Below are positions 151 through 48,994 of a stretch of 48,994 nucleotides of DNA, piece after piece. A program made the position numbers and the translations under genes. The notes below the pieces were generated by a model, which saw only the letters and a list, made by a program, of their open reading frames with translations, ran no database searches and was not told the origin of the DNA. Origin of the DNA: a virus. The stretch spans positions 1-48,994 of the IMG/VR virus record IMGVR_UViG_3300024261_000050, one strand, 5' to 3'. Numbering within the stretch: the stretch's first letter is position 1; each line of letters begins with the position of its first letter.

Positions 151-350
151 AGATTAATGCATTAGAAATGGGCACAAAGAAGTCCTCTCAGGTTATACCT
201 GTAATAAATGATTTGATAAAAGAAATAGAGGATTTAAAAGAAATAATAAAGGACCACATGGACTATACCGGATACTTTGAAGACCATGGTATTGCTTTAA
301 GAGAGAATATGTGGGAACATAACGATAAAAAAATAAAAGTAGTAGTATGA
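147..350 (+). CDS. Small charged protein, unknown function
   Basis: 67 residues, Lys/Glu-rich, with a likely helical segment at about residues 20-40 (DLIKEIEDLKEIIKDH). Both ends overlap neighbours by four bases (ATGA), typical of translationally coupled phage genes. It ends in TGA just before the RNA ligase. No family recognised. Confidence 0.65.
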   Translation: MKINALEMGTKKSSQVIPVINDLIKEIEDLKEIIKDHMDYTGYFEDHGIALRENMWEHNDKKIKVVV

Positions 351-20756: not shown

Positions 20757-21237
20757 GGTCAGAAGAACAAAAGTAGAAATTGAAGCTGGTATGACTTTTG
20801 AGCAAAAGAAGAAGGGATACACCCTCGATGACTTAGATGTGCCAGAAACTTTAAAGAAAAAAAAGATAGAAATAACAACAAAAAATGGCGATAAAACTTG
20901 GGAAACAGTAGATCATGAGTATAAGACTATTTATAAATATAAGGATCACGAAAGGGTGATAGAGAAAGAAGTACCTGTTGTAAAAGAAGTTAGAATTTTA
21001 AATGGGACAAAGAAAACCGAAAAAACTGTAGATGAAATTTTAAGTGAAGAGCTAGGAAAGTGTGTATGGGAATGGAAAACAGTGAAAATGGACAATAAGT
21101 TTAGAGTTGGAATGCTGGACGAATTGGGGAAAAAGGGATGGAAGTTTGCTTTCATTACGGAGTGGTCTTTAATAGACCCAAGTAAAAAAAATAAACCACA
21201 TACTATAAGTTTCCAGAGACCAATCTTCAAGTCATGA
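20749..21237 (+). CDS. Unknown charged protein
   Basis: 162 residues, very rich in Lys and Glu, with a central stretch of alternating charge (KYKDHERVIEKEVPVVKEV). The C-terminal part (LGKKGWKFAFITEWSL) is more hydrophobic. Its TGA stop overlaps the next ATG, so TGA serves as stop here. No family recognised. Confidence 0.55.
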   Translation: MDRVRRTKVEIEAGMTFEQKKKGYTLDDLDVPETLKKKKIEITTKNGDKTWETVDHEYKTIYKYKDHERVIEKEVPVVKEVRILNGTKKTEKTVDEILSEELGKCVWEWKTVKMDNKFRVGMLDELGKKGWKFAFITEWSLIDPSKKNKPHTISFQRPIFKS

Positions 21238-21476
21238 AGAGAGTAACTGACGAAGATACTCAAAAATTACAGGAGATTGAAGAGTTACTAAAGTTTACTA
21301 AAGAAAGATTAGAGGGTAAAAGTCCTACAGAACAAGCTAAACAAATACTTTTGTTGCAAGTTGGTAGGACTTTTTCTCATACTTTAGAGAGCCATGGGAT
21401 AGAAGTTAGTGATGTTTTAATGAACGACTTTAAGGAAGCTTACACAAAAGACATACTAAATTTCTCAATAAAATAA
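21234..21476 (+). CDS. Unknown small helical protein
   Basis: 80 residues, charged and probably all-helical. Start coupled to the upstream TGA stop (ATGA). No family recognised. Confidence 0.55.
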   Translation: MKRVTDEDTQKLQEIEELLKFTKERLEGKSPTEQAKQILLLQVGRTFSHTLESHGIEVSDVLMNDFKEAYTKDILNFSIK

Positions 21477-21494
21477 AAAAGTAAAGGATTACAA

Positions 21495-22271
21495 ATGAAA
21501 ATCTATACACATTCTTATGTAGATTTGGATGCTGCATTCTCAGCATCCTTAGTTAAATTACACAACAGTGATAAAAAATGTACAATCGAGTTCGTTTCTG
21601 CAGACCATGACGGAGTTGGTCTGGATACGGATTCTATTATAGTAGACTTGGAAGCAGGTGGCAAAGGCTTAAAAGGAGATAAATCAGCATTTTCAAGTTA
21701 TCTAAATATGTACTGCAAAAACACTTATAAGGAGGCATTCACTAATCTTTCTAGGTTCATAGACGCCCAAGACTCAACAGGCGACTGGAGCACTGGGTAC
21801 GAGATTTATGGAGAAGGTATGGAATCTATTCCTACCCTACAATACTTATTTAATTCTCTAAGAAGCAGTTATGACGACGACAAAGCATTAGTCAACTTCG
21901 CACATAACGTCCTAATAGGTGAACTAAAAAATTATAAAAAGTATCGTAAAGCACTAGTGGAGGCGGAGGAAGCAGAATGGGTGTACAATAACATAGCTAT
22001 AACTAAAGGTGTAGAGACACAAACCACTGGTATCTTGTTTTCCAAAGGAGCCGACTTCGTTATATACGAAGATGGAAATAATCTAGGAGTTCTTAGATCA
22101 AAATACTTGGCGGAAGTTAACTTAGGAAACAAGCTAAAGAGCGAGTTACCTTCTTGGTTTCATCACGAGTCCGGATTTTTATCTAGCTGGGGAACGAGGA
22201 AAGCTATAAAGTCAACCCCACCGAGCATATCTTCCGAGCAATTAGCAGGGATAATACACACACTATTTTAA
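21495..22271 (+). CDS. Possible DHH-type phosphoesterase
   Basis: 258 residues. The N-terminus (HSYVDLDAAFSASLV) has the H-x-x-x-D-x-D-A layout of DHH-family phosphoesterases, and later Asp-containing motifs (IIVDLEAGG, RFIDAQDSTGDW) could complete the metal site. DHH enzymes cleave short oligonucleotides or cyclic dinucleotides. The match is only to the motif layout, so the assignment is tentative. Last gene before a convergent terminator. Confidence 0.5.
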   Translation: MKIYTHSYVDLDAAFSASLVKLHNSDKKCTIEFVSADHDGVGLDTDSIIVDLEAGGKGLKGDKSAFSSYLNMYCKNTYKEAFTNLSRFIDAQDSTGDWSTGYEIYGEGMESIPTLQYLFNSLRSSYDDDKALVNFAHNVLIGELKNYKKYRKALVEAEEAEWVYNNIAITKGVETQTTGILFSKGADFVIYEDGNNLGVLRSKYLAEVNLGNKLKSELPSWFHHESGFLSSWGTRKAIKSTPPSISSEQLAGIIHTLF

Positions 22272-22284
22272 TTTATAAGAAAAG

Positions 22285-22309
22285 GAAAAGGTACACATGT
22301 AACCTTTTC
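22285..22309. terminator. Bidirectional terminator between convergent operons
   Basis: Stem GAAAAGGT / ACCTTTTC with a 9-base loop, flanked by A-rich and T-rich runs on the two sides, in the 45-base gap between convergent genes. Confidence 0.75.
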
Positions 22310-22316
22310 TTTTACC

Positions 22317-22886
22317 TTAAAAAGGCTTGTACTTCTCCCTAGCAGACTTATAAGTATATACAGGGGTTTCTGAGTCTCTGACTAGTTTAGTCCCCCCTAA
22401 TTTTATATCAGGTTTTTTATCTTCTTCACCTGCTTCCTCTTCGTTTCTCTCACCCTCTTCCTTGTAAACATAAGAGTCGACATCTCTTTCTGCAGTTTTA
22501 CCTTGTATAGGTGGGTCATTTTTTTGTACAGAAATCTTTGGTTTATTTTCTTTCTCTGTTTTCTCTACCTTAAAGTTAGATTTAGTAAAATTTTGATTAT
22601 TAAAGTAGTCACTTAGGTCATCTTCGGCTACTAAAGAATAATATACGTGTGGTTTATTGTCGTCACTTTTAAACCCAAGTTTCTTAGTTTCTTCAAATCC
22701 CACGTCAGTGGTAGTAACTTTTAAAGTTACAACATCATATCCCCACCGTTTATTAGGTATGTGCCTTAATATAACGCAAGGATCGGACTCACCTACTAGT
22801 TCCAAATACCCATTTAAGTATTCTGAATTATATTCGTGGTCTCTCCATACAATAGTTTGATCATCATTGTTTTTAAAGTAAGGCAT
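22317..22886 (-). CDS. Unknown acidic protein
   Basis: 189 residues. The N-terminal half looks folded and aromatic; the C-terminal half is a disordered, Lys/Glu-rich tail (EEGERNEEEAGEEDKKPD). Last gene of the minus-strand polymerase operon. Ends in TAA. No family recognised. Confidence 0.6.
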   Translation of the reverse strand: MPYFKNNDDQTIVWRDHEYNSEYLNGYLELVGESDPCVILRHIPNKRWGYDVVTLKVTTTDVGFEETKKLGFKSDDNKPHVYYSLVAEDDLSDYFNNQNFTKSNFKVEKTEKENKPKISVQKNDPPIQGKTAERDVDSYVYKEEGERNEEEAGEEDKKPDIKLGGTKLVRDSETPVYTYKSAREKYKPF

Positions 22887-22887
22887 A

Positions 22888-23376
22888 TTATAATCCTAGT
22901 TGCAAAGTAGTTGCTAGCCTAGCCTCTCTACTTAAAGGTAATTTTTCATTTTTATCTTCTACCCACATTTTAAATGATGGAAATACCTTACTATCACTAC
23001 TTATATTTTTATTAACAGAGTACCAGTCAGCTAGAGCTTCTAACTGATTCTCTAATGGTTGATCGATTCCCATCTTGTGAGCATGGTGTAAGTTTCTTTT
23101 ATAATGCCCATCAACAGCATCCCTAAACAATTTTTTAATAAGAGGGTCTTTAATCCCTGTAACCCCTTTTGGTCCTTTAAAGTATGCTACATATGGGTTC
23201 CACATATCTTTACTAAATTTATCCATATCATGCTTTAAAAGAGTACTCAAAGGAATACCAAGGTTACGGCCAGGGCTTATCATGGAAGCTTTATGTTTTA
23301 ATAAATATTTTAAGTAACTTCCATGATCTTTTAAAGTTAAGTCTTCGTATTGGGCTATTTTTTTAAAGTATTTCAT
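22888..23376 (-). CDS. DUF5662-like protein
   Basis: 162 residues. The pattern of an N-terminal YLLKHKASMI segment, LLKHDMDKFS, and YKRNLHHAHK followed by an ALADWYS helix matches phage proteins of the DUF5662 type. The conserved His and Asp suggest a metal site. Function unknown. Its start overlaps the upstream stop by one base. Confidence 0.6.
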   Translation of the reverse strand: MKYFKKIAQYEDLTLKDHGSYLKYLLKHKASMISPGRNLGIPLSTLLKHDMDKFSKDMWNPYVAYFKGPKGVTGIKDPLIKKLFRDAVDGHYKRNLHHAHKMGIDQPLENQLEALADWYSVNKNISSDSKVFPSFKMWVEDKNEKLPLSREARLATTLQLGL

Positions 23377-23720
23377 TATTTTATAATATCCTTATAGTGA
23401 GTACCTAGTTTAATATTATTTTTTTTGAACCAACCTGAGTTAGTTTCTATAACATATTTATATTCACCAGCCCCGAACACTGGGTATCTCTGTTCCTCTA
23501 CAAGCTTTTCCACGTTCAGAAGATTACCTTTTACATCAAAAAAGCCTACATCAATTGAGAAGGAAACATTTTTATTTCAAAAGTTACCAGACTTTGGTTC
23601 TCCAAAGATGAATAATGCACCTTCATTAGTCTTTAATTTATTTTGACCCATAAGACCTTTCATTTGGTCGTTAGGTGATGTGGCGGTAAATCTGATATTT
23701 AATTTATGTGTTTTTTTCAT
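23376..23720 (-). CDS. DUF192 family protein with in-frame TGA
   Basis: 114 residues from ATG 23720 to TAA 23376-23378, with one in-frame TGA at 23577-23579 (codon 48). The DUF192 pattern is clear: QMKGLMGQNKL, then GALFIFGEP, then NF-(TGA)-NKNVSFSIDVGFFD, and finally GEYKYVIETNSG. In DUF192 proteins this segment reads FWMKNT, so the TGA falls exactly on the conserved tryptophan. This is among the best single pieces of evidence that TGA encodes Trp here. The molecular role of the family is not established. Confidence 0.85.
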
Positions 23721-23746
23721 TTACAGTTACGTTGTTGTACTTATTA

Positions 23747-24343
23747 TTATAAGTAGATTTTTATTAAATTTCTAAGGGCATCAAATCTTGTTGCTTTATG
23801 TCTAAATGCTCCTACTCCAGACTCAATTGGATATAAAAATTCCCTGACTTTTCTAGATATAGGAATATCGTATCCTTTCATCATTCTGTTTTGAGCAGCA
23901 AATTCTTCTATCGCATCTCTCTTGCCTCTAGTAAATTTATCTTTCAGTGTTTTTGGTCTAAAAGTTTTTTGAGGGTTCTTTTGGTTTCTTATAGCGTGGG
24001 TAAGCTCATGCTTTTTTATCATAGGATACTCCGCCCCCAACTTTCTTTTATTTAAAAAAACTAGTTGTTTTCCGCTTTTCATGCCTACAGTTTTTGCTAC
24101 TGGGAATGAGCCTAAGTCTTGGTATAAACTTTCCCCCATTATTTTGCCTACAGCCTTATCCAGGTCATTTCAGTTATTTATTTCTTTTATTGACAAGGCA
24201 GTTTTAGTTAATTTTAAGTTTCCCAACCCAGTTCTTCTTAGTGCCCTAATAAAAGGTGGTTTTTTTCCAGCAGCCAAAGATTTGTCCATTAACTTTTTTA
24301 ATTCCGGAACTTTTTTTGTACTAAGCGGTCTTTGGAAACTCAT
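23747..24343 (-). CDS. HELTH-motif protein with in-frame TGA
   Basis: 198 codons plus stop; the start ATG 24343 overlaps the polymerase stop by one base. An in-frame TGA lies at 24170-24172 (codon 58), in EINN-(TGA)-NDLDKAVG. Residues near 108 read MIKKHELTHAIRN, an HExxH metal-binding motif typical of zinc metalloproteases, so it may be a small metallopeptidase, perhaps acting on a virion protein. If TGA were a stop, only an internally started C-terminal fragment could hold the motif. Confidence 0.65.
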
Positions 24344-27300
24344 TAATAATACTCCCCTTCATTTCTAGCAAATTCTTCCCCATAAATATATGCAGGTATT
24401 GGGTCTTTACCGTGTATGTCCGTCACCTGACCAGCAGAAGCCCCCTCTACTAAAGCAGCTTTTATCCTATTAGTAGTAAATTTTGTTAACCAATCTTCAC
24501 TGTCTGAGTTAAGAGTATCTACGGATTTAAAATATGGCCTATATCCTATTAAGTCTAATCCAGTCATTTCCCTTTCTTTATTTAGTCTTTCAATTCTTGT
24601 AATGGACGTTTTGTCTCCCCTTAAAAACCCGCTACCTGTCGGAGCTTCTGTAATATATGCATTATCAGATATACCTCTTACTATAGTTTCAAATGTTTTC
24701 TTAAAAAATTTACTATCAAATACAGGACCATTTAGCTCGTCAACAATATATTGCTGTGCCTCTAAGTGAGATTTTAAGTCACTCAACTCTTGCGGTTTTA
24801 TAGTTCCATCAGATACCTTATCTCCCACATTGACTAAGTCACCTATTTTTACTACTGGGATTCTTCCGGAAGGAACTGTAAACGTTTTGTCGTTCTGAGT
24901 TCCATACCCTTCTATTCTAAGGTCATAACCTCCTATAGGATTCTTTTCTATCCACTTTACCTTTCCCTTTACATCGCTAAGAGTAGCTTTACCGAGCAGC
25001 TTCTCAGGAACTTTTAACAATTGTTCTAATCTAGGAAATTTATCTGTCAAGCCTCCACCCGCAGACGCAGATCCACCACTATGAAAAGTTTTCATAACTA
25101 ATTGTGTCGAGCGTTCGGTCAAAGCTTGGGACTCAAGAATACCAATAGAAACACCTACTGAAGGTAGACTTCCGTTAGGCATTAACCCGTAACAAAAACT
25201 GCAGATACCTTCTACAGACTCACAAGTCAAGGGGCTACGAACTTTTATTGACCTTATTCCTGCAGTCTTTAGCTTCAAAATCATGTTACTATTGATCAAG
25301 TCATTTCTCCTTGCGACACCAGACACGGACTGTCCTAGAACTCTATCCATGGCGTCCTTGCTATCCACCGTCATTTCTATATCTCTTAATGTCTTGCAAT
25401 CTTCTTCAGTAATAAGTAAATTTCTATTTACGCTAAGCAAAGTTTTGTTTAAAGCCCCAGAATCCTGAGTATTTACTGCTCTGTCAATAGTTCCCTTTCT
25501 TACCGCATACATTGAATTAAAGTATGATGGAGTGTCTATCCCCTCACCGTAAGATTTTAAAACGGGTATAGGCAACGCTTTACCAGAAACATCCTGCAAA
25601 ACCCCTGGCATCGATAAAACTTGTCTTATAGAGTCTTTCTTACTAAAAGATCCTGACTCATACATTCTGTATAAATTATTTGAGGAAGATAGGCTTTTAT
25701 CTTGTGCTTTTTCTGTATCAGTAGTAAGCTTTAATAAAGCCTCTATTCTTTTATCTCCTGACATCGCCTGTATCTTAGGAAGTCTGTCTTTATACAGTCT
25801 ATCTCTATAATCCCTATTTATAGCAAAATCTGTAATAGATACAGTGTTACCGATTGTATGCCCATACTGGACAGATAAATCCTTCCAGGCATTTATAATA
25901 ACAGAAAATTTATCACGGTAGTTCTTTCCTACCCTAGAAAGCACGTCACCAACTGTATTAGCATCCATTACGCGGGAGTAATCCTTTAATGGCTCTGGCA
26001 AATCTTTATTTATATAGTACTGCCCAAGAGTCATATTTTGTCTGCCTAGCTTAAAAACATCTGTCATCTCAAGTCTTGCACTCTTAGCATCTGATATAGT
26101 CTTAAAAGATTTACCGGTATTTTTACCTAGTAAGCTAGCTTGGTACAGCCCTAACTGGTAATCCTGTCCCAGATCGGGTACAACAGAAAGATCACCGTGC
26201 TTAAAAATATTTTTACTTGGTAACATACGATTAGCTTCTTCTATTGCATCGTTGCCAATTGGTATGTTTACTGACATAGTGTCCCCGTCAAAGTCAGCAT
26301 TAAACCCTTTCACAACTATAGGGTTTAATTTTATATCACTTCCATCAGTAAGGACGGTATTAAATGCTTGAATACTATGTTTGTGTAAAGAAGGCGCCCT
26401 ATTAATAACTACTGGTCTAGATTTTACTACATTATTTAAAGAATTTTTAGCTAAAATATCTTCGTCATTGTATGCTTTTAAAGCTGCTGACGCACTCATA
26501 CCTTGTTGCTTTAAATCCTTTATAATAAAAGGTTGAAATATCTTGTAAGCCATTTTAGTGGGAACGCCTACCTGGTCTATCCCCAAGGACGGCTCAACAG
26601 TGATGGTAGATCTTCCTGATAAATCCTGTCTAGAGTCCCACATAGTACCGTGAACAAACCCACGTTTTAAACTTTGTCCAGATAAATCTTTTAAAATACC
26701 CTTATACTTTTTATTCCCATAAGTTATTGGGTCTATAAACCCTTGTAGAGCTTTTACAGAACTATATAAATTATTTGAGTACTTAATTTCATCTTCTTTA
26801 GTTAGTACGTTAGCTGCTTTAGCTTTTCTATAACCCTGGTTGATAAGCCCCACATCCCTATAATGGTGATTTAAATCATTTACCATTAAATCTCCAGAGG
26901 GTAATGGATAAATTGGTCTAAAAATTGGCGGTAAAACTGGTAGGTATTGCATAGTATACGCATCATAAGCACTTAACTTCAACTTTTTTAAATTCTGTAA
27001 AAACCTAACCTTTTTATTCAATTTATTGACATCTGATGGAGGAGCTTTTTTTAACATACGTTTTGATGAAGTGAGCTCTTTACCCACATCTAAGCTTTTA
27101 AGTGCTGAAAGTATAGAATTAAAACCGCCAGCTTTTTTAAAGCTAGGATCTAATCTCTCACTACCATCCATAACAGAACTAAATTTATTTTCTGTTATAC
27201 CCAGTATTTTTTGAATAGAATCTTGATACATAGGATTAGGTATTCTATCAACTAACTTAATGTGGGACCAATTCTTCCCAGAAGACCCGCCTGTAACGTC

Positions 27301-30300
27301 GTTGTCAAATAAACCTCCTTTCCTGCTAGCAAGGTTTTTACCTATCAATAACGCACCAGGATCTTTTAATTCCCCATTACTTAATTTTTTTACATCCTTG
27401 TCTGTGAGAGGAAAGATTTTTATTGTGTCGCCAACTTTCTCTGTATTTACGCCAGCTGCTTTTAATCTATTTAACATCTTATCAAATACAAAGTTTCTAG
27501 ACGGTTTAGGGGGCATCAAACCCAATTGTAATGCTCTCCAGTACTCTTCATTTTCTCTGCCTTTTATGTTTGCAATTTCATACAAATTATTTTTTGCACC
27601 ATGGGCCAAATATGCGTAAGTCTCCATATGACCAGCTTTCTGTGCACCTTTACCAACAGGCCTGTTGTCTACATCATAGCTTCCTATTCCGTGACCAGCG
27701 GATTTTTTCTTGACGATGTGCCTAAGTTTCATAAAATATTTTTCACCGACAAATATGGGGTTTTTAAAAGCTTTCCCAGTCTTACCATCAGTTAAAATTT
27801 CATTAGGCTCAACGCCTGCTTTCTTTATATCAGCCAGCACCCTTTTAGAAGAGTCATCATTCGGGTCATCGAAGTTATCTACTATATAAGTGTTTCCAGT
27901 TTTCTTTGCAATTTTTCCAGCCCCAGCTTCTAAGAGTTGTCCAATATTCATACGTCCAGGGACACCGTGTGGGTTCAACATTATGTCTACAGAAGTACCA
28001 TCGGGCCTATGTGGTGCTTCACTGTCAGGAATTATTTTAGTAACAATATTTTTATTACCATATCTCCCGCTCAGTTTGTCAGCTAGTTTAAATGGGTGTA
28101 CAGATTTTATGTAAATATCTAAGTTTCTACCTATTTTTTTAATATCTATTACTGTACCAGACTCATCCTCATCTCACTCTACAACAACTTTGGTGTACAT
28201 ACTAAATATAGCCTTATTTAATTTTTTTAATGCTCTTTCTTGATCATCCAAAACTTTTTCAACTAAAAAAGCTGCCACTACCTCACCAGGAAAAAATTCT
28301 TTTCCTTTTTTTGCTATACCATCTGACCCTAACTTAGCTAGGTTATCTGGACTAATCTCATCTGGATACCACGCCGAAAACTTTTTCTTATCAAACGAAC
28401 TAATCTTAGGATTAAAGTAAACATTTTTTTTATGGATCATTGTGTGTGAAAGTTTTTCAGCAGCACTTTCCGTTATCACTGCTCCGTCTTCGAAATTGTA
28501 TCCTTTCCAAGGCATGTATGCCACAGTCAAATTTTTACCTATTGATAAAGCTCCGTTACTAGAATAATTGCTGTCAGCTAGTGAGTCCCCCTCTTTTACT
28601 TTGTCCCCTACTTTAACTAATACATCGGAGTGAAGAAATCCATCTTGATTTAATGGAAAATTATTGTACAGTCCCTTACTGAATGACTCCCCGTTAGACT
28701 TTTTTATAGTCACGTAATCATCTGTAATTTTTTCTATAATACCTCGCTCCCCTTTCAGTATGACCGGATTTAAAAAGTTTCCTACTAACTGTTCGTACGT
28801 TTTATCTTCATCCCGTTTTACCTGGACATAAGGAGCTTCTTTTTGATCTAATGCAAGCGCCTGTGTAATCATGCGACCTCCCATCGACCCCCTATTACCT
28901 TGTACAGTTTCTAAAAAAGGAACCATATTTGACTCAAAGGAAAACATAGATTTAGGCGATCTCAAGTAAAAATCGACTTCTGAAGATGAGATCTTCTTAG
29001 TTTTACCTTCATGCATAACAATAACTCTAGGCCCTCGTGACTTGGGAAGACCGTTAACAGTTATATATTGATCTGGAAATCCTACCACCTTAGAAAAAAA
29101 CTGAGTAGGATTTAAATAGTGGATTTTTCCTTTCTTATCAATTACCGGGCTAGTTATGTCATTTCCTACCTTATGGACTTCTGAAGTTAAGCCGACTGAC
29201 ACCCCAATTTTCCCCGATTCTGGGGTAGCGAGGGAGTCTAAAAAACCGAAGTGTGAAGGTTGGACAGACCTAGCCTCCATTGTAATTGCATGGCTACTAC
29301 CTATCCCACCCGTGCCCATTGGTGTCGTTTTTCTCCAATCAGCTAGTATACTTGCAGGGTTAGTTTGTGGAGGAGTTGCAGATAAGTCGCCCACAGTAAA
29401 GAACTCTTTTATTGGCTTAGAGAAAGCACTAGCACTAACAATATCCCTAACGTTATCTTTCAATGACATGGATCGGATCATTTTTCTCTGCAAAGATTCT
29501 TTATGTTTATCAAAATGTGCTGACAATAAATCATCTATACCATATATATTTTTAAAGATTAAACTATCTCTTTTGTCGGGTATATCGATCCCTTTATTTA
29601 TATTCAGTAACTTCACCGATGAAGCTAATAAGGTTTTTCCATTTACAGTTTCGTATCCTGTACCTAGAGTCACCTTAGTTGTTTCTTTACTAACTTTTGT
29701 ATAGTTATTGAAGTACTCATTTAAGCCATTAATAACCTCCTTATAATCTTTCGGATCTTTTTTGTAGAAGTTTTTGTAAATTGAGGTCATTTCTGAAACC
29801 TCAGTATTTAGTGCCCCTTTTTTATTTAGTAATAAAAGGTCAGATCCCCAAGCTTTTTCCATATCTCTATCAGATACGCCGAGTAAGTTTAGTAATGTCC
29901 AGAGTCTATATTTTCTATTTTTTAATATTACAACAAAAATTTGTTTTATAGGATCCAGCTGCATTTTAAAATTATAGCCACGCTCAAGATTAAATTCATT
30001 CTCAAGCTCACCATTATTCTTTACCCTAGCATATATACCAGACTTTCTTCTAAGTTGGTTGGTTGTTTGATACTCATTACCGTCTATTATTGCTGTGAAC
30101 CTGTTTGTTAGCTTTGGTATGTGTCCTATTTTTGAATTTTTTTTCTGACTAATAATCTTACCAGAAGTAGAGTCAATAATCTTTATATCAGCATATATAG
30201 GAATTTGCCATGTCTTCCTGTTTAATTTTACTTTCTTTTGCTCAGGGAAATCCATATCAGAGAGAGTATCTTTTACTACGACATTCTCTATAATAAGTTT

Positions 30301-30405
30301 TCTACCATTAGATTCTACGGGGAAGGCCGCCTCTATAGAGTTAGATATGGAAGAAAAGATGTTTTTATTCTGGAGTCGGTGGTCTAAGTAATTAGCGTTT
30401 TTCAT
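24343..30405 (-). CDS. Fused RNA polymerase beta-beta' subunit with in-frame TGA
   Basis: One frame of 2,020 residues from ATG 30405 to TAA 24343-24345, broken only by TGA at 28174-28176 (codon 744). Beta motifs: PSHFGFLDSLATPESGKIG, GNRGSMGGRM, then NLTVAYMPWKGYNFEDGAVI before the TGA; LADKLSGRYGNKNIV and LNPHGVPGRMNIGQ after it. Beta' follows without a stop or start: GGLFDNDVTGG, the catalytic NADFDGD at about residues 1369-1375 and a CxxxxxxCxxC cluster before the GGSASAGGGL trigger region. The TGA lies in the conserved C-terminal part of beta, so full polymerase requires reading TGA as an amino acid, presumably Trp. It would transcribe phage genes. No sigma or alpha homologue is seen in the window. 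Confidence 0.93.
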
Positions 30406-30450
30406 AGAAATTTTTTTTTATAAATATTGGTATAAGAATTAAGTAACGTT

Positions 30451-30478
30451 GTACTGTTTAAATATAAACTAACAGTAC
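30451..30478. repeat. Inverted repeat upstream of the polymerase
   Basis: GTACTGTT at 30451-30458 and AACAGTAC at 30471-30478 form a perfect 8-base dyad in the divergent region between the polymerase gene and the plus-strand operon, 20 bases from a GGTATAAGAA motif. It could be an operator or a small stem-loop. Confidence 0.5.
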
Positions 30479-30511
30479 GGCTATGTCAACTGATAAACCA
30501 GGGACATATTT

Positions 30512-30577
30512 TTGAATACAAAAGAAAAAGAAAGTGATCCCAACGACGAAATTTACGTCGAACCTTGGGGTAAGTAA
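30512..30577 (+). CDS. Putative 21-residue peptide (TTG start)
   Basis: Reads NTKEKESDPNDEIYVEPWGK from TTG 30512 to TAA. The composition looks protein-like, but there is no strong ribosome-binding site. An imperfect hairpin (GAAAGGGAC / GTCTCTTTC) follows at about 30583-30606. The rest of 30406-30634 shows no gene. Confidence 0.28.
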   Translation: MNTKEKESDPNDEIYVEPWGK

Positions 30578-30634
30578 GGAAAGAAAGGGACTATCTGTCT
30601 CTTTCTAATTTAAAAAAAATAACCATATTTATCT

Positions 30635-30763
30635 ATGAAAGATTCTGAAATGAAGTCATCAATAACAGACATAGTAAAAACTGTTTCTACGTTTGTACTT
30701 GATCTAATTTATGGCACCGACGAAGAACACACAAAAAAAGATTCGAAAAAAAAAGATAAGTAA
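30635..30763 (+). CDS. Small lysine-rich protein
   Basis: 42 residues from ATG 30635 to TAA 30761-30763, with an amphipathic helix (SITDIVKTVSTFVLDLIYG) and a lysine-rich tail. Precedes the next gene by 12 bases. Function unknown. Confidence 0.45.
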   Translation: MKDSEMKSSITDIVKTVSTFVLDLIYGTDEEHTKKDSKKKDK

Positions 30764-30775
30764 AGGAAACTAAAG

Positions 30776-31087
30776 ATGATTGATATCCCGAAGCAGGACC
30801 CAATAAGTTATGAAGAATCGGCGTATGATTTAGAAGGATACGACTTTGTAAGGGACGTACATGTAAATGTTTGTACAAATGATGTTGGGTATGTAACTAA
30901 ACTAGAAGTCATGGTATGTACAAACAGTCTAGAAAGTTTTTCAGATATTGTTCTTCCTGTTGAGTTTAAAAATAAGGAAGAGTTTGATCAACTACTGGAA
31001 GGCAAGTTGAAACAAGCAGACGAACACTTTAAAAAAGAAAACGAAAGATTAGAAGCCTCTTTTAGGCAATGCAGATTATTTAATTAA
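30776..31087 (+). CDS. Unknown protein
   Basis: 103 residues, mixed fold with a helical, charged C-terminus. Preceded by AAGGAAACTAAAG and located directly upstream of the AAA+ ATPase. No family recognised. Confidence 0.55.
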   Translation: MIDIPKQDPISYEESAYDLEGYDFVRDVHVNVCTNDVGYVTKLEVMVCTNSLESFSDIVLPVEFKNKEEFDQLLEGKLKQADEHFKKENERLEASFRQCRLFN

Positions 31088-31109
31088 AAACAAAGGAAAC
31101 AAAAAAAAG

Positions 31110-32242
31110 ATGTTAAAAAAATTATTAAAAACAGAGAGTACCTTAAACTCTTATTTTATAGAGAGGGAAGACGAAGTCAGAGGACTAACCTTAGGCATAT
31201 TATCGGGAAACAATGTTCTATTTTTGGGCCCTCCCGGAGTATCTAAGTCACTTCTTGTAAATAGTTGGGCGTCGTTAATTAAGGACACTAACTATTTTGG
31301 ATGGCTAGTGAACAGATTCTCAACACCAGAAGAGCTTTTTGGCCCTTACTCTTTAAAAGGTTTGGAAAACGATGAGTACAAAAGAATTACGGATGGAAAA
31401 CTTCCGGACTCTCATGTAGGTTTTATTGATGAAGTCTTCAAGTGTAATTCAGGTGTTTTAAATGCATTACTAAGCGTGTTAAATGAGAGAACCTTCTACA
31501 ATAACGGGAAGGCAGTGAAGACCCCAATATTAACAGTGGTAGGCGCATCAAATGAATTACCAGAAGAATCTGATAACTTAGAAGCTATGTACGATAGATT
31601 TCAGTTAAAATATATGGTAAGCCGCATTCAGGAGCCATCTAATTTTTCTAAATTAATGAAATTAAAAAATGGTTTGAAGGAAATACGACTTTAAGTTTAT
31701 CCGACATTCATGCCGCAAAAGCTCAAGCAATGGAAGTTCAGATATCCGATGAAATGGTTGACCTTCTAACTGAGCTGAGAGAAAAGTTAAAGGAAGAAAA
31801 TATCGACGTTACTGATAGGACATATATGTTTTCTAAAAAATTACTAAAAGCAGAAGCGTATATGAACGGTAAATCAGAAGTAACTGAAGAAGACTTTGAA
31901 ATTTTACAAAACGCATTTTGGTCTGAACCAGGTCAGAAAAAAACTGTATACAGCACTATCTTAAACACCGTAAACCCAGCAAAGAGTAAAGTCTTAGATA
32001 TTTATTATGACGCTACGGACTTATTTGAGGATTTAATGGCAAGTAAAAAAGATAACATAGAATCTACAGAGAAGAGTATGGAAGCTGTAATTAAGTTAAA
32101 AGATGCTAAAAAATCTTTACGGGGACATTACTTAGATGCTAAGAAAAATGGACAAGACTACAAAATTGTACAGAAATACGAAAAGAAAGTAGACATCTAT
32201 TTAAATAAAGTATACGCAGAATGTTTGGAGGTTTCATTTTAA
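31110..32242 (+). CDS. MoxR/RavA-like AAA+ ATPase, requires -1 frameshift
   Basis: Two frames together give a complete MoxR-type ATPase of about 375 residues. Frame 1 (31110-31694) has Walker A GPPGVSKS at residues 40-47, Walker B VGFIDEVFK near residue 105 and a sensor GASNELPEE. Its last seven residues are out of family. The -1 frame continues with WFEGNTTLSLSDIHAAKAQA and the lid domain with DRTYMFSKKLLKAEAYMNG, ending at 32242. The switch point is A_AAA_AAT at 31664-31670, in phase for -1 slippage. MoxR ATPases remodel partner proteins together with VWA proteins, and one follows here. Either programmed frameshifting or a one-base homopolymer deletion explains the break. Confidence 0.78.
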
Positions 32243-34097: not shown

Positions 34098-35000
34098 ATG
34101 ACAATTTTTGAAATGGTAGAGAAAGATAGAGAAGAGTTGAAAGATATAGACAAAAATAAGGAGTTATATTATCTGTCGTACCCCATAAAGAAAAGAAATG
34201 GTAATAGTAGATGGTTAGACGCACCTCAAGGTGAGTTAAAAGATTTTCAAGAGGCCTTTCTTTATAAATTTTTATACAAGTTTAAACCACATCCAGCAGC
34301 AGTAGGGTTTGTGACAAAAAAACACGTATCAGATGGCGCTAAAAAACATTTAAAAAATAATGTACTGCTTACAATAGACGTACTAAATTTCTTTGGAAGT
34401 ATACATGAACTTAGAGTTATAAAATTAATTAGCTTCTTGTTTAGTGCATACGTAAAAAGAGACCCATCTTTTGTATTCAGGAAAGACGACATACCATTAA
34501 TAGCCTCTTTATTAACATTTAAAGGATCTATTCCCCAGGGCGCCCCGTCAAGTCCAGCATTATCGAATTTGTATTGCCTTAGACTAGACAAGAATTTAAC
34601 TAACTTTGCAGAAAACCACAATCTTGTGTACACCAGATATGCTGATGATTCTGCATTTAGTCATAAAAATAGGACCGAAGATATAGGCAAGCTTATTCCT
34701 GAAATAGAGATGTTTTTTAACGCAGAAGCTTTAGTATTAAATAAAAAGAAAACTAAAGTTAGGAGACCTCATAAAAGAATGGTAGTCACGGGAGTAGTAA
34801 TAAATGATAAATTAGGGATTCCTAAATGGAAAAGTAAAAATTTTAGAGCTAAGTTACATAACTTAATAAGAGACAATAAGTCAGTAACATTAGAAGAATA
34901 TCAAAAAATGAGAGGTTATGCAGAATGGATACGAACATTGGACCCACTAAAGGGAAAAAAGTTTATAAAACAACTTGGGAACGTGACTTTATCAGATTAA
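34098..35000 (+). CDS. Retron-type reverse transcriptase
   Basis: 300 residues. Reverse-transcriptase motifs in order: LTIDVLNFFGSI (catalytic Asp94) at 91-102, GSIPQGAPSSPALSN at 143-157, TRYADDSAFS (YADD at 181-184) and LNKKKTKV near 214. Retron features: GFVTKKHVSDGAKKHL at 70-85, where GAKKH matches the retron NAxxH motif, and VVTGVVIND at 229-237, the VTG motif of the thumb. Retron enzymes make branched RNA-DNA hybrids from a neighbouring RNA and usually serve anti-phage defence; in a phage they may defend against rivals. Strong site AAGGAGAAGACAAC upstream. Confidence 0.9.
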   Translation: MTIFEMVEKDREELKDIDKNKELYYLSYPIKKRNGNSRWLDAPQGELKDFQEAFLYKFLYKFKPHPAAVGFVTKKHVSDGAKKHLKNNVLLTIDVLNFFGSIHELRVIKLISFLFSAYVKRDPSFVFRKDDIPLIASLLTFKGSIPQGAPSSPALSNLYCLRLDKNLTNFAENHNLVYTRYADDSAFSHKNRTEDIGKLIPEIEMFFNAEALVLNKKKTKVRRPHKRMVVTGVVINDKLGIPKWKSKNFRAKLHNLIRDNKSVTLEEYQKMRGYAEWIRTLDPLKGKKFIKQLGNVTLSD

Positions 35001-38767: not shown

Positions 38768-38947
38768 CTACTCAAATTCTAGATACCAAACAGTTATCAT
38801 TGCCTTCCCCAACTTATCATAAGTAAATTCATCTCTTAAGATTTCACAGTTGGGGTTGTTCAAAATATCCTCGTATTGAGCTTTTTCTAGCTCGTCCTCT
38901 AACGAAAATTTTTTGACATTAATTTTACCGTCCTCATTAAAGTTCAA
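38768..38947 (-). CDS. Small unknown protein (TTG start)
   Basis: 59 residues from TTG 38947 with GAGG about eight bases upstream, ending at TAG 38768-38770; reads NFNEDGKINVKKFSLEDELE and is acidic and helical. It overlaps the upstream gene by 11 bases and ends two bases from the glycosyltransferase stop. No family recognised. Confidence 0.5.
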   Translation of the reverse strand: MNFNEDGKINVKKFSLEDELEKAQYEDILNNPNCEILRDEFTYDKLGKAMITVWYLEFE

Positions 38948-39152
38948 TAGGAACTACCTCAAGCTTATCTAGGTCATCACTATCATTTATCACGTCAGGA
39001 TCATAGTCTAGCTCTTCTCACCTATCACCCTCCCCATTATAATAGTTAGAAACTTTTTCTAATCCTTTATCATCTGTACATAAAATTTTAGTTATTTTAC
39101 CTGTGGAAGTATTTTTAAAAACTTTATACGTTCCATATTTTGTCATAGACAT
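38937..39152 (-). CDS. Small unknown protein with in-frame TGA
   Basis: 71 residues from ATG 39152, which overlaps the portal stop by one base, to TAA 38937-38939. TGA at 39018-39020 (codon 45) lies in NGEGDR-(TGA)-EELDYDPD; both sides have normal protein composition. Read with Trp it is a continuous acidic protein. No family recognised. Confidence 0.62.
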
Positions 39153-41017
39153 TATACATTCCCTCTGGTTTGTCCCTTCTGTTTTTCAGAGTCATCCTGC
39201 ACTCGCTGTGTTTCTGACTGTTGGTTGTTCTGGGACTGATTACTAATATTTTTAGCTGCTTGTTCAGCTTGCTGTTGCTGTATCATCATAATCTGGTTCA
39301 TTCTTTCCGTAACTAAGCCGTACGTAATTGGCATATCTGCTGCCATTTTTTGTAACCTTTGTTTCTGTTGAGCTTGTGGCAACCCAAGCAATTCGTACGA
39401 ATACCTCTCAATTAATTGAGCAGGATCAGCTGGTATTCCTTGGTTCTCTCTTGCGAGTTCTTCCCCAAATAGTTCAGCTTTCAGTCTTGTTTGCTCACTT
39501 TGAGCTGCTTGCTGAGCCCGAACATTGTACCTAGCAATAGTTATACCTGCCTTACCTTGTGCCTCGGCCGCAGCTATTTGTCTATTAGATTGCTGTTCGT
39601 TCATTATAGACTGGGTTTTTTGTAGGGCCTCTTGCTCTGCGGCATAGTTGTACCCAAACTCATCCAGTAACCTAGCATCACTAATCTTACCGGTTTGGTT
39701 TAAATTAATAGCTAACTGTTTTGCAGAAGCATCGTCAGCCATTTTAAACTTTTTAAAGTGTACCTTTACCTTAGGATAACTTAATATTTTATTTATTTTT
39801 GTAAGTACAAAGTGATTTAAAAAATCAGTTAGTAGCTCCCTATACGTAAGAAAATGGTTCTCAACAATACGTAACGATACGCTAGAACTTGTCCAAGAGC
39901 CACCACCTTTAATAAACTCTACTGGAACACCTAAACTATTTATTATACTTTCTTCTAAAAATCGCATCTCTGGAGTTAGCAATAACGCTCTAGCATTACC
40001 ACCTAACTCTTGGTAACCGATAGGGATAGGAAAAACACCAATATGGTTTGGGTCTTTTTTCCACTTTTTAATTTGGTCCTCCATTTGTCCTTTCCATTTA
40101 CCGAGATTCATTTGTGTGAACGGATCAAGTGTAGTTGTATTAGCAGGATGAATAGCTTTTTTTGGAACAATATGCTCATTAGCAATTGCTTCATTACCAC
40201 GTCTTAAGGTTTGTAAGTAATAAATTTCTTTTAGAGCAGGCAGTATAATTGGCTTGCCCCATCCCATATCTTCTTCTGCAAGAGTAGGTCTTTTAAAATG
40301 ATAAAAATTAGACTGGTCTAATTCAATTTTCTTTCTTTTCTTTAGTGACTTAAGAAAAATAGCCGGAACACCTTTTAATATAGTTTTATTTCCTGATATA
40401 ATTTGACTCTTAATCTTAGGTGGTATACTATAAAAGTAAGTAGATTTTCCAGTTATAGGATTAAATTCAATATCAATATTTTCTGGAGACCATCTCACTA
40501 GATCAAAGTTATCTATAGACTTAAAGTACTCGTCTTCTACTGACATCATTATTTCTCCAGCACCACAAGAATCACATTTTCCATGGAATTGGAATTTTTT
40601 TAGCTTAAAGTTCTTTATGTTATCAATTAAGTCTGTATTGCCGCAACTAGAGCACTTTAAAAAACGTCTAAAGCCTACTGAAGCGGATATAAAAGCGTTG
40701 CCGTAAGTAAAATAGTCTAACCCTATGCTTATCAAAAAACTTTTAATTTTTAGTTTATCATGTAAAGCAGTGTCATACTTATCCCTAGTTGCTGAATCAA
40801 TACTATTTTCATATAAAATATCAGTGATAGGGTATTCAGTAAGCTTTGTAATTATATTATTTAAGAACCCATTAGTATAAAAGAATGTTCTACAATACTT
40901 AAATAAAGTCTTTATATTTTTTGGTATAAAATTTCTAGCTAAATCGAAAAAAGGGTTCGGGTATTTATTACCCGTCGTGCTTGTTATATCAGCATCTGAG
41001 ATTGGTCTTACTGGCAT
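39152..41017 (-). CDS. Portal protein
   Basis: 621 residues. The N-terminal two thirds fit a phage portal: helix-rich start, a zinc-ribbon-like insert with CSSCG and CDSCG near residues 121 and 150, then PALKEIYYLQTLRRGNEAIA and LLTPEMRFLEESIINSLGVP before the clip and crown region. The last 170 residues are a Gln/Ala-rich coiled coil. Portals form the dodecameric DNA gate at one capsid vertex. Trp is encoded only by TGG here. Ribosome-binding site AGGGAGAAACAAC. Confidence 0.75.
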   Translation of the reverse strand: MPVRPISDADITSTTGNKYPNPFFDLARNFIPKNIKTLFKYCRTFFYTNGFLNNIITKLTEYPITDILYENSIDSATRDKYDTALHDKLKIKSFLISIGLDYFTYGNAFISASVGFRRFLKCSSCGNTDLIDNIKNFKLKKFQFHGKCDSCGAGEIMMSVEDEYFKSIDNFDLVRWSPENIDIEFNPITGKSTYFYSIPPKIKSQIISGNKTILKGVPAIFLKSLKKRKKIELDQSNFYHFKRPTLAEEDMGWGKPIILPALKEIYYLQTLRRGNEAIANEHIVPKKAIHPANTTTLDPFTQMNLGKWKGQMEDQIKKWKKDPNHIGVFPIPIGYQELGGNARALLLTPEMRFLEESIINSLGVPVEFIKGGGSWTSSSVSLRIVENHFLTYRELLTDFLNHFVLTKINKILSYPKVKVHFKKFKMADDASAKQLAINLNQTGKISDARLLDEFGYNYAAEQEALQKTQSIMNEQQSNRQIAAAEAQGKAGITIARYNVRAQQAAQSEQTRLKAELFGEELARENQGIPADPAQLIERYSYELLGLPQAQQKQRLQKMAADMPITYGLVTERMNQIMMIQQQQAEQAAKNISNQSQNNQQSETQRVQDDSEKQKGQTRGNV

Positions 41018-42868: not shown

Positions 42869-43420
42869 TTATTTACCTTTCATTTTTTTTAAATCTTTTA
42901 AAGCCTTTTTTATGTCTACCCTACTTTTTTCAAGTTTAATATCCATACTACTAGTAGTGGCCTTTTCTATGTAAGGGTTTGACCCTTTCTTTATGTCTAT
43001 ATGTTTTGGTACAGAATACTTACGTACATCAACTTCCTTAGAAGTACTCGATGTTTTTTTGTCACTACTTACCACACTATTTACTACTATCGGAGAATTA
43101 GTACTTTTTTTAAACCAAAATGCTGCTATGAAAATTGATAGCAATACTAATAAAATCCTGAATTCTACTACGTAATAATATATAGGGTTTTGCACTGTTT
43201 CTATTGGAATAAGTATTTCATCCCCAGGAAATATTTTATCGGGATTAATTCCTAAGGATTCTTTGTTTAAATGGTAAACACTACTTCAAGAAACTCCGTA
43301 AATTTCAGATATTTTACTAACAGATTCACCGCTTCTTACTGTGTGCTGTTTAGCTCTAATATAATCAGTACCAAACAAAAACGACGTTACCAGCAGTAAG
43401 TATACTAATAACCTTTTCAT
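42869..43420 (-). CDS. Secreted/membrane LysM protein with in-frame TGA
   Basis: 183 residues from ATG 43420 to TAA 42869. A signal sequence (MKRLLVYLLLVTSFLFG) is followed by a LysM domain: QHTVRSGESVSKISEIYGVS-(TGA)-SSVYHLN, then PDKIFPGDEILIP. TGA at 43286-43288 (codon 45) sits where many LysM domains have an aromatic or Trp residue. A transmembrane helix (EFRILLVLLSIFIAAFWF) follows, then a Lys-rich tail. LysM domains bind peptidoglycan, so the protein probably contacts the cell wall during lysis or entry. Confidence 0.78.
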
Positions 43421-44499: not shown

Positions 44500-45114
44500 T
44501 TAGCCCTCGTTTTTTATTTTATTTATGTAATCGTAAGCAACATACCCAGGACATGCAGGCTTCCCGAAGTCAGCGTGACCATATATGTCTGCTTTAGTTA
44601 TAGACAATTTATCCATATTAAGCAAGTGTTCTATCAATTTTTTTAGAGACGAGAGCTGTGCTTGAGAAGGTCCACTAGATGTTCCTTTGTGACCCTCGCC
44701 GTCAAAGTCACCAACCAACATTATTCCTATACTTGATGTATTTTGTCCCTTAGCTTGCCATACGGTATGACTTAATTGATTACAGTGGTATACATCCCCT
44801 TCTTTTGATATCCCATAATGATAACAAAAATGGGGACACCCGTTAGGAGAGATATGATTAGGTTGGATATGGTAGTTATTGACTTGCTCTACTGTGGCAT
44901 CACCAAGTTCTTGGTGCACAATTATTTTATTTATAGATGCTAGCGATCTTTTACTTCATTTTCTTGACTCGTGCCATTGTAACTCACTAATTACATTATC
45001 AATAACAAATGGTTTTTTTATTGCCTCTTCTGAAACTTTTTTATCTGGAGCTGGTATTGTCCTCTTTAGTAAGATTTTAATAAATTCTCAAACGTATGTT
45101 AGTATTATTTTCAT
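44500..45114 (-). CDS. Endolysin: N-acetylmuramoyl-L-alanine amidase with two in-frame TGAs
   Basis: 204 residues from ATG 45114 to TAA 44500. TGAs at 45088-45090 (codon 9, ILTYV-(TGA)-EFIK) and 44956-44958 (codon 53, SRK-(TGA)-SKRSL) interrupt the frame before the catalytic domain. The amidase_2/PGRP core then follows: INKIIVHQE (first zinc His), HFCYHYGISKEGDVYH, and YGHADFGKPACPG (His and Cys zinc ligands). It cuts the amide bond between muramic acid and the stem peptide. Start inside the frame after the second TGA would remove the strand carrying the first zinc His region, so Trp decoding is probably needed for an active enzyme. Confidence 0.85.
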
Positions 45115-45127
45115 GTTTTAATTTAGG

Positions 45128-45394
45128 TTAGTTTTGGGCAGGCCTGGTAGGAATTGAACCCACGCACTCCGTTTTGGACGCGGAGGGGGACAGTTTTGAA
45201 GACTGCTCGTCACCCAGCTGACGCCTCAGGCCTATTTTATTTTTTATATAGTCCTGTGACGCATTATTAGCATCATCAATATTATTGTATGCATTATCTA
45301 GAATTTTGGTTTGTTGTAAACAATGGTCGTCTATTTGTACAGAAAAATTGTCTGTACCATAAATAGCGTCTATATGTATTTCGAGTCTCTTCAT
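45128..45394 (-). CDS. Small protein whose 3' end overlaps the tRNA
   Basis: 88 residues from ATG 45394 to TAA 45128-45130. The first 54 residues (MKRLEIHIDAIYGTDNFSVQ onwards) look like a normal small protein. The rest is translation of the tRNA gene at 45139-45233, which has no stop in this frame. Cutting out the tRNA would leave a message without a stop codon. Function unknown. Confidence 0.45.
   Translation of the reverse strand: MKRLEIHIDAIYGTDNFSVQIDDHCLQQTKILDNAYNNIDDANNASQDYIKNKIGLRRQLGDEQSSKLSPSASKTECVGSIPTRPAQN
45139..45233 (-). tRNA. tRNA with anticodon UCA (reads UGA; predicted Trp), long variable arm
   Basis: 95 nt. Acceptor stem AGGCCTG/CAGGCCT pairs perfectly; discriminator G73; CCA not fully encoded. 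D-arm CGTC/GACG with AGCTGGGT loop. Anticodon arm GCAGT-CTTCAAA-ACTGT places TCA at 34-36 (window 45197-45199). T-arm GTGGG-TTCAATT-CCTAC. A1-U72, G2-C71, G3-C70 and G73 are the known bacterial tRNA-Trp identity elements, and the anticodon loop differs from a Trp loop mainly at base 34. A 26-base variable region forms CTCCG/CGGAG with loop CGTCCAAAA, itself like a Trp (CCA) anticodon loop. Length and variable arm also recall tRNA-Sec, the main alternative. It would decode the in-frame TGAs around it. Confidence 0.85.
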
Positions 45395-46268: not shown

Positions 46269-48994
46269 CTACCCACAATGGTACGTACAACCAACAAACG
46301 CTACCATGTACACTACTCCATCATACTCCACCTCTTCTAGTTTATACTTAGTATCATCATCAAAATTACAGTCCATTGTTATTTTAGCAACAGTATAGTT
46401 GTGTAGTACATCATCTGATTGTTTCATGCCTATACCAGGAATAGGTGATGAAGTTATATAGTCCCCATTTTCTAGATTTCCAGAATAATTTGATATCCAA
46501 ACAGCACCCTCCCCTAAGGAGTTTATTTTTAAGTACTCATTTAGCATAGAGTTTCCTTCACTGTCTACAAGTAGATTTTTATCATCGTCAAATTTTCTGG
46601 TGTTAGTAATGCCAGATATAACGCCGTAAACCGACTTATCCATTTTTGTGGAAGATACCTCAACATTCGTTCATGTGTCCATTATATCAATAGAAGAGAT
46701 ACCCGTATTCATTGACCGATCTGTATAACCAGGACTAGAAGTGACAATTTTACCTATATAATTCTCTATGTTATCCTTGTAGTAGTTAATTGTATTATCA
46801 GATGGCCATGATTTATGGGTACCAGTAAAAAATAAACTGGTCCAAAATACTCCCCCAGTATCATCGGTTAGGAACTCATCGTTAGCTGCAGTTGAATTGT
46901 TAGAATCGTATAAGAACGATCTCATTCTAACAGTACCGTTGACATCAAGCTGACTAGTTGGAGCGTCAACATTTATACCTACGTTCCCACCAGAAATATT
47001 TAGTTTATTACCATTCTCAAGTTTAAAATTTATAAAAGACCCTGGAGTACCTCACCCTATATAACACCCCCTAGTATCAGAACTATCTCTTACTTCAAAG
47101 TACCCATAGTGGTCGGAGTCGGAAGTATATTTAGATGTAATAGCTCCATAATTACATCTTATTTTTCCCCCACTTCATCAAATAGCTCCCCAGGGTTGGT
47201 AGTGCCAACACCGACATTTCCATCATACTTTATAGTCAGTCTGTCAAATAAGTCCTTATCATAAAGGTTATTAACGGCAAATCTAAGGTCAGTTTTGTCA
47301 TAACTGGTATTCATATTATCAGTGTGCCTTACAGCCCTAATTGCAGCCCCTATCTGGTCAGTGTCCTCGGATGGATTCATAGTATTTGATTTAAAAGCGA
47401 TCCCAGCGAATGCGTTTTCTGTTGCATTATCGTTGTGTATAACTAGCTCAAAGTCACTAAATATGTTATTGTTGGATGTAGTTGTGCCGTCATCTCCCCT
47501 AATTTCCATAACCCCAGCAGCAATTGTCCCTACGCCACCTGCACTTAATTTATTAGTAATTTTGACATCACCACCCGTTACATATAATTTATATGAACCA
47601 TTTAGATTATCATCTCCGATAGTTACTTGTCCTGCTGTAATTCCTTTTTGAAAATATGGGGGGAAAGAATCGTAGGATGACGCGGCTAAAAGTCTAAAAT
47701 CAAAAGTAGATTTTAATCAAAAGTACCTTGCGCCAGAGGTATGCCTTCCCAAGTTGGTGTAGGAAACGCCGTTTAGTTCAACATCGTAGCTTCAAAAAGC
47801 GTCTCCATCCAAATTATTAGATGTAGCCCCTGTCAGGTCATCAGCGTCTCCTCCAAAATTGTATTTTCCAAGCGAAAAATCACTGCTAGTAGTACCAAAA
47901 CCTAACGAAAGAGTGTTGGAGTTATAAGTTGAGTTAGTTGCATATGATTCTAATGTTGTGGAACTAACACCTACAGATCGTTTATAATAAAAAGTAGAGT
48001 TGGCTCCTTCTATGTATACTTGGTGTCCTCCTCTTAGTCCTGGAGTAATTATCATTCCTATCGGATAGTCCAGCGATGGGGTCTCCATCCGAACCATACC
48101 AGCACTCTCCCCGCCTCGAGCTCCATTTAAAATTAAAGCATAGTAATTTCCGGAACCGGAAGTCCAATCTGATACATATCTCACGAAATATTTTCCAAAA
48201 TCAGCATGTGTCTCGTAAGCGTATATATTTAAAGCTCTATAGTTAAAATAATCTGCCTCTGCGTAATCATCTAAAGAGAGTTTTCGTGCATTTACGAATT
48301 CACCTTGTAAGGTACCTGCTGTAATTGAATCAGCTGTCATTTCTCTTGAAATCCTAACATCGTCCACTTTTGTCTCATTAGCTCCCTCATATAATTCTAA
48401 TTGTATTTGCGTACAACTTGAATTAAATCCTAAACCAGTAACCCCATTACCAAATTGATAGGATTTTTTTACATAAGATGATGTTAAAGGTCCATCTACT
48501 AATAGCTCCAAAGTTGATAAGTATGTCCCTGAGCTATTGTATTGTCGGACAGATATCGAAAATTCAGAACTTGCCGACCCTTTTGCGTAACAACTGAAAA
48601 AGTATTTTTCAGTTCTTGATATTGGTATTAAAGCATGGTCCGACTCGCTTGTATTGTTTAGTGTATACGCATATTGAACAACGGGGTCAACACCAACTGC
48701 CAAAATTAATGCTCTTGTACCCCCATATGAGTCACTTGTTGAAGCATTTGAGTCTGTATCTCATGCTGTCGTACTACTACTGTTAGATCACCCTTGAGGT
48801 CTAGTTCCTATTCTACCTTCAAAATCTCCATTAACAACTGAATTATCATTTCCAGGGAGTCCGATTACACCGTCTGGGCCTTGGGCTCCTTCATCCCCCG
48901 TCGGTCCTGAGGGACCGGATGCTCCGATTACACCAGTAGGTCCGGAAGGTCCCGTAACTCCTTCTTCTCCTGTAGGTCCAGATGCTCCGATTAC
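46269..48994 (-). CDS. Collagen-like tail fibre with six in-frame TGAs and one frame break (5' partial)
   Basis: The gene enters from the right edge. Order: collagen-type Gly-X-Y repeats ([16 protein letters not shown]), a carbohydrate-binding-like domain opening [16 protein letters not shown]-(TGA), beta-rich shaft with [11 protein letters not shown], and a C-terminal domain with [19 protein letters not shown] like intramolecular-chaperone fibre ends. TGAs: 48788-48790, 48761-48763, 47792-47794, 47717-47719, 47052-47054 and 46671-46673. The first sits where carbohydrate-binding modules carry Trp (PxGW). At 47159-47161 the frame meets TAA right after GAA AAA; the -1 frame continues as [15 protein letters not shown]. 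Likely receptor-binding fibre. Confidence 0.8.

Follow-up and report, generated by a model that had tools for sequence, protein, structure and literature searches.

We consider it likely that the fused beta-beta' RNA polymerase encoded in the window (the whole 48,994-nucleotide stretch of viral DNA analyzed here) is made late in infection and packaged in the virion, and that its in-frame TGA is one case of a TGA-to-tryptophan recoding of the late gene set, the polymerase being an outcome of the switch between codes and not its controller. The earlier note on this DNA had proposed that a suppressor tRNA gates the polymerase and so orders the transcription programs through the genetic code. The gene and its parts are the following:

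24343–30405, minus strand: fused beta-beta' RNA polymerase gene, ATG to TAA, 2,020 codons with 1 in-frame TGA
27436–30405, minus strand: beta-like part, residues ~1–990
24346–27210, minus strand: beta'-like part, residues ~1066–2020, with E. coli beta' aligned from residue ~143–158
28174–28176, minus strand: TGA codon 744, read as Trp; this column of 90 aligned polymerases holds Trp in 87 and Tyr in 3
28048–28086, minus strand: conserved LADKLSGRYGNKN of beta, residues 774–786, downstream of the TGA
26281–26301, minus strand: NADFDGD catalytic loop, residues 1369–1375

The position of the 2,020-codon frame and of its single TGA at codon 744 was confirmed, on the minus strand, which the earlier note had left unstated. 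Both Rpb2 and Rpb1 domains are present in the frame; solved beta chains match residues ~58–987, and solved beta' chains match from ~1066. The three aspartates of the catalytic loop (D1371, D1373 and D1375) are invariant in the polymerase alignment, and the invariant residues of LADKLSGRYGNKN are D776, K777, G780, R781, N784 and K785. As had been claimed, the TGA precedes this conserved region and all of beta'. Alignment of the beta' part with bacterial beta' begins only at residue ~143–158 of the latter, so its N-terminal zinc-binding region seems to be missing. Under the standard code, the locus splits into frames of 743 and 1,212 codons. The long frame is not a product of chance, because it aligns end to end with relatives at 58–61% identity. 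The TGA is also not an assembly error, since the separate record IMGVR_UViG_3300025592_000008 (64,739 bases) shows the same TGA and differs from the window by 9 mismatches and 5 gaps (99.97% identity). No Shine-Dalgarno-like sequence was found before the polymerase ATG.

A profile scan of viral contigs returned at least 459 relatives of the polymerase. A single continuous beta-beta' frame was found in 79 of the best 80 of these at least 459 relatives, which is an upper estimate because coverage-based selection favors unbroken frames. The fusion had been described as rare; within this clade it is ordinary. In distant relatives (Salmonella phage Arash, Vibrio phage D69 and record G005), the last part of beta' forms a separate gene, with the split at about query residue 1400–1455, while beta and the first part of beta' stay together. 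The polymerase of Vibrio phage D148 has further breaks, with a homing endonuclease gene between the pieces. A split at codon 744, which the earlier note had named as evidence against its own reading, is known in none of the relatives.

Searches with the tRNA pattern and the polymerase identified three further recoded phages, G011 (210,208 bases), G012 (205,518 bases) and G015 (73,364 bases), which are considered below together with record G001. At the position of codon 744, the six relatives read at the DNA level (L004, L005, L006, L007, L008 and L010) have TGG, the codon that the earlier note had suggested looking for, and TAT occurs there in two records of one further relative. When the four recoded phages were compared with non-recoded relatives, 71 in-frame TGA columns held 41 W, 11 Y and 6 F, and 103 TGG columns from the same genes held 60 W, 12 Y, 12 L and 6 F. 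The Trp share was 58% at TGA columns and 58% at TGG columns. A Ser, Cys or Gly meaning of TGA would leave a different set of residues at these columns. Judged from these alignments, TGA means tryptophan in the recoded phages.

The polymerase shares this codon use with its neighbors on the minus strand, where the following features are found:

23376–23720, minus strand: DUF192 protein, TGA at codon 48
23747–24343, minus strand: late-strand gene, TGA at codon 58
38937–39152, minus strand: small late-strand gene, TGA at codon 45
39152–41017, minus strand: portal protein, which marks this strand as structural
42869–43420, minus strand: LysM-domain protein, TGA at codon 45
44500–45114, minus strand: Amidase_2 (endolysin-like), TGA at codons 9 and 53, the latter matched by Trp in both relatives
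45135–45234, minus strand: tRNA with anticodon UCA, long variable arm, A1-U72 and G73; predicted Trp-charged opal suppressor
46269–48994, minus strand: collagen-repeat tail-fiber-like frames with in-frame TGAs

Early and late were assigned from gene content and strand only, with TGA and TGG counted from hand-listed genes in the window and through a simple home-made gene caller in the other genomes. On this basis, the plus (early) strand of the window, whose genes include DNA ligase, RNA ligase, Clp protease, reverse transcriptase and AAA ATPase, has 145 TGG and 0 TGA Trp codons, and 5 of its 47 genes end in TGA. The minus (late) strand, with portal, amidase, fiber and polymerase among its genes, has 43 TGG and 12 in-frame TGA codons, and none of its 22 genes ends in TGA. 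The TGA at codon 48 of the DUF192 gene presumably falls on the conserved Trp position of the family motif. The same strand bias was obtained elsewhere. TGA/TGG counts on the structural versus the other strand were 11/47 versus 1/89 in G001, 106/253 versus 1/370 in G011, 117/139 versus 14/407 in G012 and 50/84 versus 0/76 in G015 (Fisher p 1e-4 to 1e-42). In G011, TGA is carried by the genes for a baseplate wedge protein and the terminase large subunit, among others, and amidase and fiber are also among the TGA-bearing late genes. The 14 off-strand TGAs of G012 lie in a nine-gene block (21003–31631, minus strand) that is largely without counterparts in G011, and we count this cluster against a clean early/late split. 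TGA serves as a stop on early strands (24/163 and 21/157). In the relatives G002 and G003, which have no tRNA(UCA), there are 0–2 in-frame TGAs per strand and TGA stops on both strands. On this codon and stop usage, early genes run on the standard code, and TGA-as-Trp covers the structural and lysis strand.

In a FastTree tree, the recoded phages and the non-recoded G003 form a fully supported clade. L099, whose polymerase has no TGA, nests within this clade with weak support, so either one gain of recoding with a loss or several gains is possible. A distant and otherwise unbroken polymerase (L138) has a single in-frame TGA at codon 683, a variable position. Backup stops behind the early TGA stops were considered as a further feature of the early genes and dropped; they follow 4/5 such stops in the window, but are no more frequent in G011 and G012 than in non-recoded relatives. 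Several other observations concern the window itself. The fiber gene (46269–48994, minus strand) is split into two frames in the window but forms a single frame of 932 codons in G001, which probably reflects an indel difference or error. Window positions 1–245 have a second copy nearby in G001 (49270–49514, 98.8% match). On the plus strand, 5320–6120 encodes a homologue of the anti-Thoeris protein Tad3 (Pfam 4e-31), and 34098–35000 is a reverse transcriptase domain gene with homologues in G003 and G002, possibly part of a diversity-generating retroelement.

Two promoter-like elements lie between the polymerase and the divergent early genes:

30461–30489, minus strand: sigma70-like promoter TTGACA-N17-TATATT, ~55 nt upstream of the polymerase ATG
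30429–30437, plus strand: early-strand promoter-like motif GGTATAAGA, facing the divergent early genes

A similar sigma70-like element is present upstream of the polymerase in 7/7 phages compared. Copies of GGTATAAGA on the plus strand of the window lie at 2488, 17207, 18516 and 30429. In the recoded records, this core has 0 late-strand sites and 11, 21, 20 and 9 early-strand sites; late versus early counts are 2 versus 23 in G003 and 2 versus 15 in G002. The sites of G011 divide 0 versus 21 by strand, and 20/21 are outside called genes. The full motif TGGTATAAGAA occurs almost solely on the early strand (the minus strand in G001, G011, G012, G015, G003 and G002) and outside genes, and it probably serves as an early promoter specific to the phage. 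TTCTTATACC, upstream of the polymerase, was considered as a late promoter and rejected, being the reverse complement of the early-strand motif that faces the divergent early genes. An operator-like inverted repeat, GTACTGTT...AACAGTAC (window ~30450–30480, minus strand), overlaps the –10 element of the polymerase promoter; it occurs once in G001 and is absent from the relatives searched.

Virion proteomics of a distant relative bears on where such a polymerase acts. In purified virions of Arash, gp206 gave 3,516 spectra, the highest of all proteins, and gp216 gave 1,210 (PMC10585845). The authors of that study suggested a role in early transcription, yet abundant enzymes may merely be carried over (PMC10585845). 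Both gp206 and gp216 are homologous to the window polymerase, Arash being distant at ~30% identity. By analogy we infer that the polymerase is packaged here too, and likewise which enzyme would read which promoter and all of the timing that follows. The virion would deliver full-length polymerase at infection, and the delivered enzyme would read the early-strand GGTATAAGA promoters. Early genes, written in the standard code, would be translated by the unmodified host. Late transcripts, including that of tRNA(UCA), would come next, and Trp-tRNA(UCA) would allow the TGA-bearing late mRNAs to be completed, that of new polymerase among them. The new polymerase would then be packed into progeny, and the suppressor tRNA would serve the polymerase of the next generation, not the start of present transcription. 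The early motif, combined with a host-type promoter for the polymerase gene, fits an injected polymerase that transcribes early genes. Phage N4 is arranged in this way, with an injected enzyme that transcribes the early genes and whose own gene is read from a host-type promoter.

The earlier note placed the polymerase at the start of the next program instead. If the polymerase were made during infection and TGA read-through were the switch that starts the next transcription program, the presence of at least one polymerase TGA in 4/4 recoded phages and the single homologous polymerase locus found in the 210-kb relative G011 would both agree with it. The conserved host-like promoter could be read early, and its strength and position ~55 nt upstream make early transcription of the polymerase by the host enzyme possible. 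We nevertheless regard this switch as unlikely, because the polymerase TGAs are neither enriched nor fixed in position. TGA per Trp codon in the polymerase versus other late genes was 1/13 versus 10/45 in G001, 3/14 versus 103/345 in G011, 4/13 versus 113/243 in G012 and 4/13 versus 46/121 in G015, with no enrichment in any of the four recoded phages (Fisher p 0.39–0.77). The polymerase TGAs are at codon 744 in the window, at codons 50, 185 and 1443 in G011, at codons 64, 166, 354 and 958 in G012, with a fifth near the end in the longer match, and at codons 167, 964, 1054 and 1507 in G015. At the position of codon 744, G011 has Trp rather than TGA. With positions that vary by phage and no enrichment in the polymerase, a dedicated gate at codon 744 was given up as the preferred reading. 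Moreover, with a virion-borne enzyme, as the Arash homologue is, transcription could begin without new synthesis, and tRNA(UCA) itself lies in the late block.

The claim of a gated polymerase therefore survives only in part. Completion of the polymerase does depend on TGA decoding, given the Trp column, the phage tRNA(UCA) and a host apparently unable to read UGA as Trp, and the 743-residue product made otherwise would lack the C-terminal part of beta and the whole of beta'. Gating specific to the polymerase is not supported, given the spread of TGA over the late gene set, the absence of enrichment and the wandering positions. The further idea that the suppressor orders transcription programs is not supported either; the Arash homologue in virions points to a late product that enters ready-made at the next infection, and the early genes have a promoter-like motif of their own.

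Hosts with UGA as Trp exist, and Mycoplasma or Spiroplasma are the hosts of many phages for which table 4 is predicted (PMC11210395). A phage that simply follows the code of such a host is very unlikely here, because the early-strand genes essentially lack TGA as a Trp codon and have TGA among their stops, a usage that suggests a host in which UGA is not decoded as Trp. The phages also have a dedicated tRNA(UCA), and two have a normal tRNA-Trp(CCA) in addition. The earlier note had named a host with constitutive UGA decoding as evidence against its own reading; the codon and stop usage of the early genes speaks against such a host.

The window tRNA(UCA) adjoins the amidase gene and is co-directional with the late genes. 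It lies in the late block of 4/4 recoded phages, with the main tRNA arrays on the opposite (early) strand; the array of G011 includes tRNA-Trp(CCA), and that of G012 holds a tRNA with anticodon CUA (UAG; ARAGORN, 105393–105469, minus strand). All four tRNA(UCA) homologues have a long variable arm, the GUCUUCAAAAC loop and G73, and A1-U72 is present in 3/4. Rfam prefers the tRNA-Sec model RF01852, at 38.5 bits for the window, 32.5 for G011, 42.2 for G015 and 48.5 for G012, of which only G012 exceeds the gathering cut-off of 47 bits. The UCA anticodon and the long variable arm are traits of tRNA-Sec. The acceptor/T branch of tRNA-Sec is 13 bp (8/5 in bacteria); it is absent from the G011 and G015 homologues, where the predicted acceptor has 7 bp and the T stem 5 bp, and in the predicted fold of the window tRNA a canonical T stem is not formed. 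By these predicted features, the tRNA body is tRNA-Sec-like, with Trp-like ends and a Trp-like anticodon arm. A body that resembles tRNA-Sec and not tRNA-Trp does not make Trp charging obvious; the codon columns and the known Trp identity elements of tRNA point to it. It is possible, though less likely than not, that a tRNA-Sec-like scaffold has been turned into a Trp-charged late opal suppressor in this phage clade, and late proteins, including a polymerase exported in the virion for the next infection, would then be completable only during the late program. The tRNA pattern was also sought in bacterial genomes as a source of the tRNA or a host, with no matches.

Decoding of TGA as selenocysteine or serine by a tRNA-Sec-type tRNA draws on the Rfam preference (G012 above the cut-off, the window below) and on the initial charging of tRNA-Sec with Ser. 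We hold it to be highly improbable, since the TGA columns track Trp and not Ser or Cys, A1-U72 is found in 3/4 of the tRNAs, and G73 and the Trp-like GUCUUCAAAAC loop are found in all. We give almost no credence to two genes separated by a true TGA stop, a 743-residue beta fragment and a 1,212-residue protein from 27981, because, although both frames are present under the standard code and related phages do split the polymerase (though elsewhere), the 65 residues from the TGA to the next ATG (744–808) hold invariant positions and align unbroken in relatives, the TGA sits on a conserved Trp, and a Shine-Dalgarno-like sequence is not evident before 27981.

The late recoding described here is a variant of known phage stop-codon recoding, in which the new elements are a probable virion polymerase in the recoded set and an unusual tRNA. 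With the non-recoded sister phages as controls, the early/late code split is measurable within one clade. The window offers a clean case of a phage polymerase as a recoded gene, and a tRNA-Sec-like body with Trp-like identity ends bears on the origin of suppressor tRNAs. Stop-codon recoding in phages is known from Borges et al. 2022, as cited in PMC10746230, PMC11210395 and PMC13059738. In the phages so described, a phage tRNA reads the stop, in-frame stops lie in structural and lysis genes, and early genes are standard, all as in our phages. Release factor 1 (PF00472) and Trp-tRNA synthetase (PF00579), both optional in those systems, were not found in six records, four of them recoded, with G001 and G015 partial. 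The phages described here differ further in the tRNA-Sec-like tRNA body and in a recoded set that includes a multi-subunit-type RNA polymerase. The clade resembles the mReC phages as presented in the excerpts of PMC7481178 consulted, being large tailed phages from IMG/VR metagenomes with clear beta and beta' homologues. In those excerpts beta and beta' are separate and fusion is mentioned only for crAssphage, whereas here they form one chain. Arash (gp206/gp216, PMC10585845) and the Vibrio phages D69, D148 and D181, with genomes of ~180–187 kb, have a homologous polymerase. In Arash and D69 a single chain likewise holds beta together with the beginning of beta', but the last beta' part is a separate gene, identity is ~30%, and their polymerase frames have no in-frame stop. 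In phiKZ-like jumbo phages and N4, the phage polymerase is injected and reads early promoters (PMC7598289, PMC10612078). Here, the corresponding enzyme would be a single fused multi-subunit-type chain with a stop codon in its gene, and its injection is suggested by analogy with these systems.
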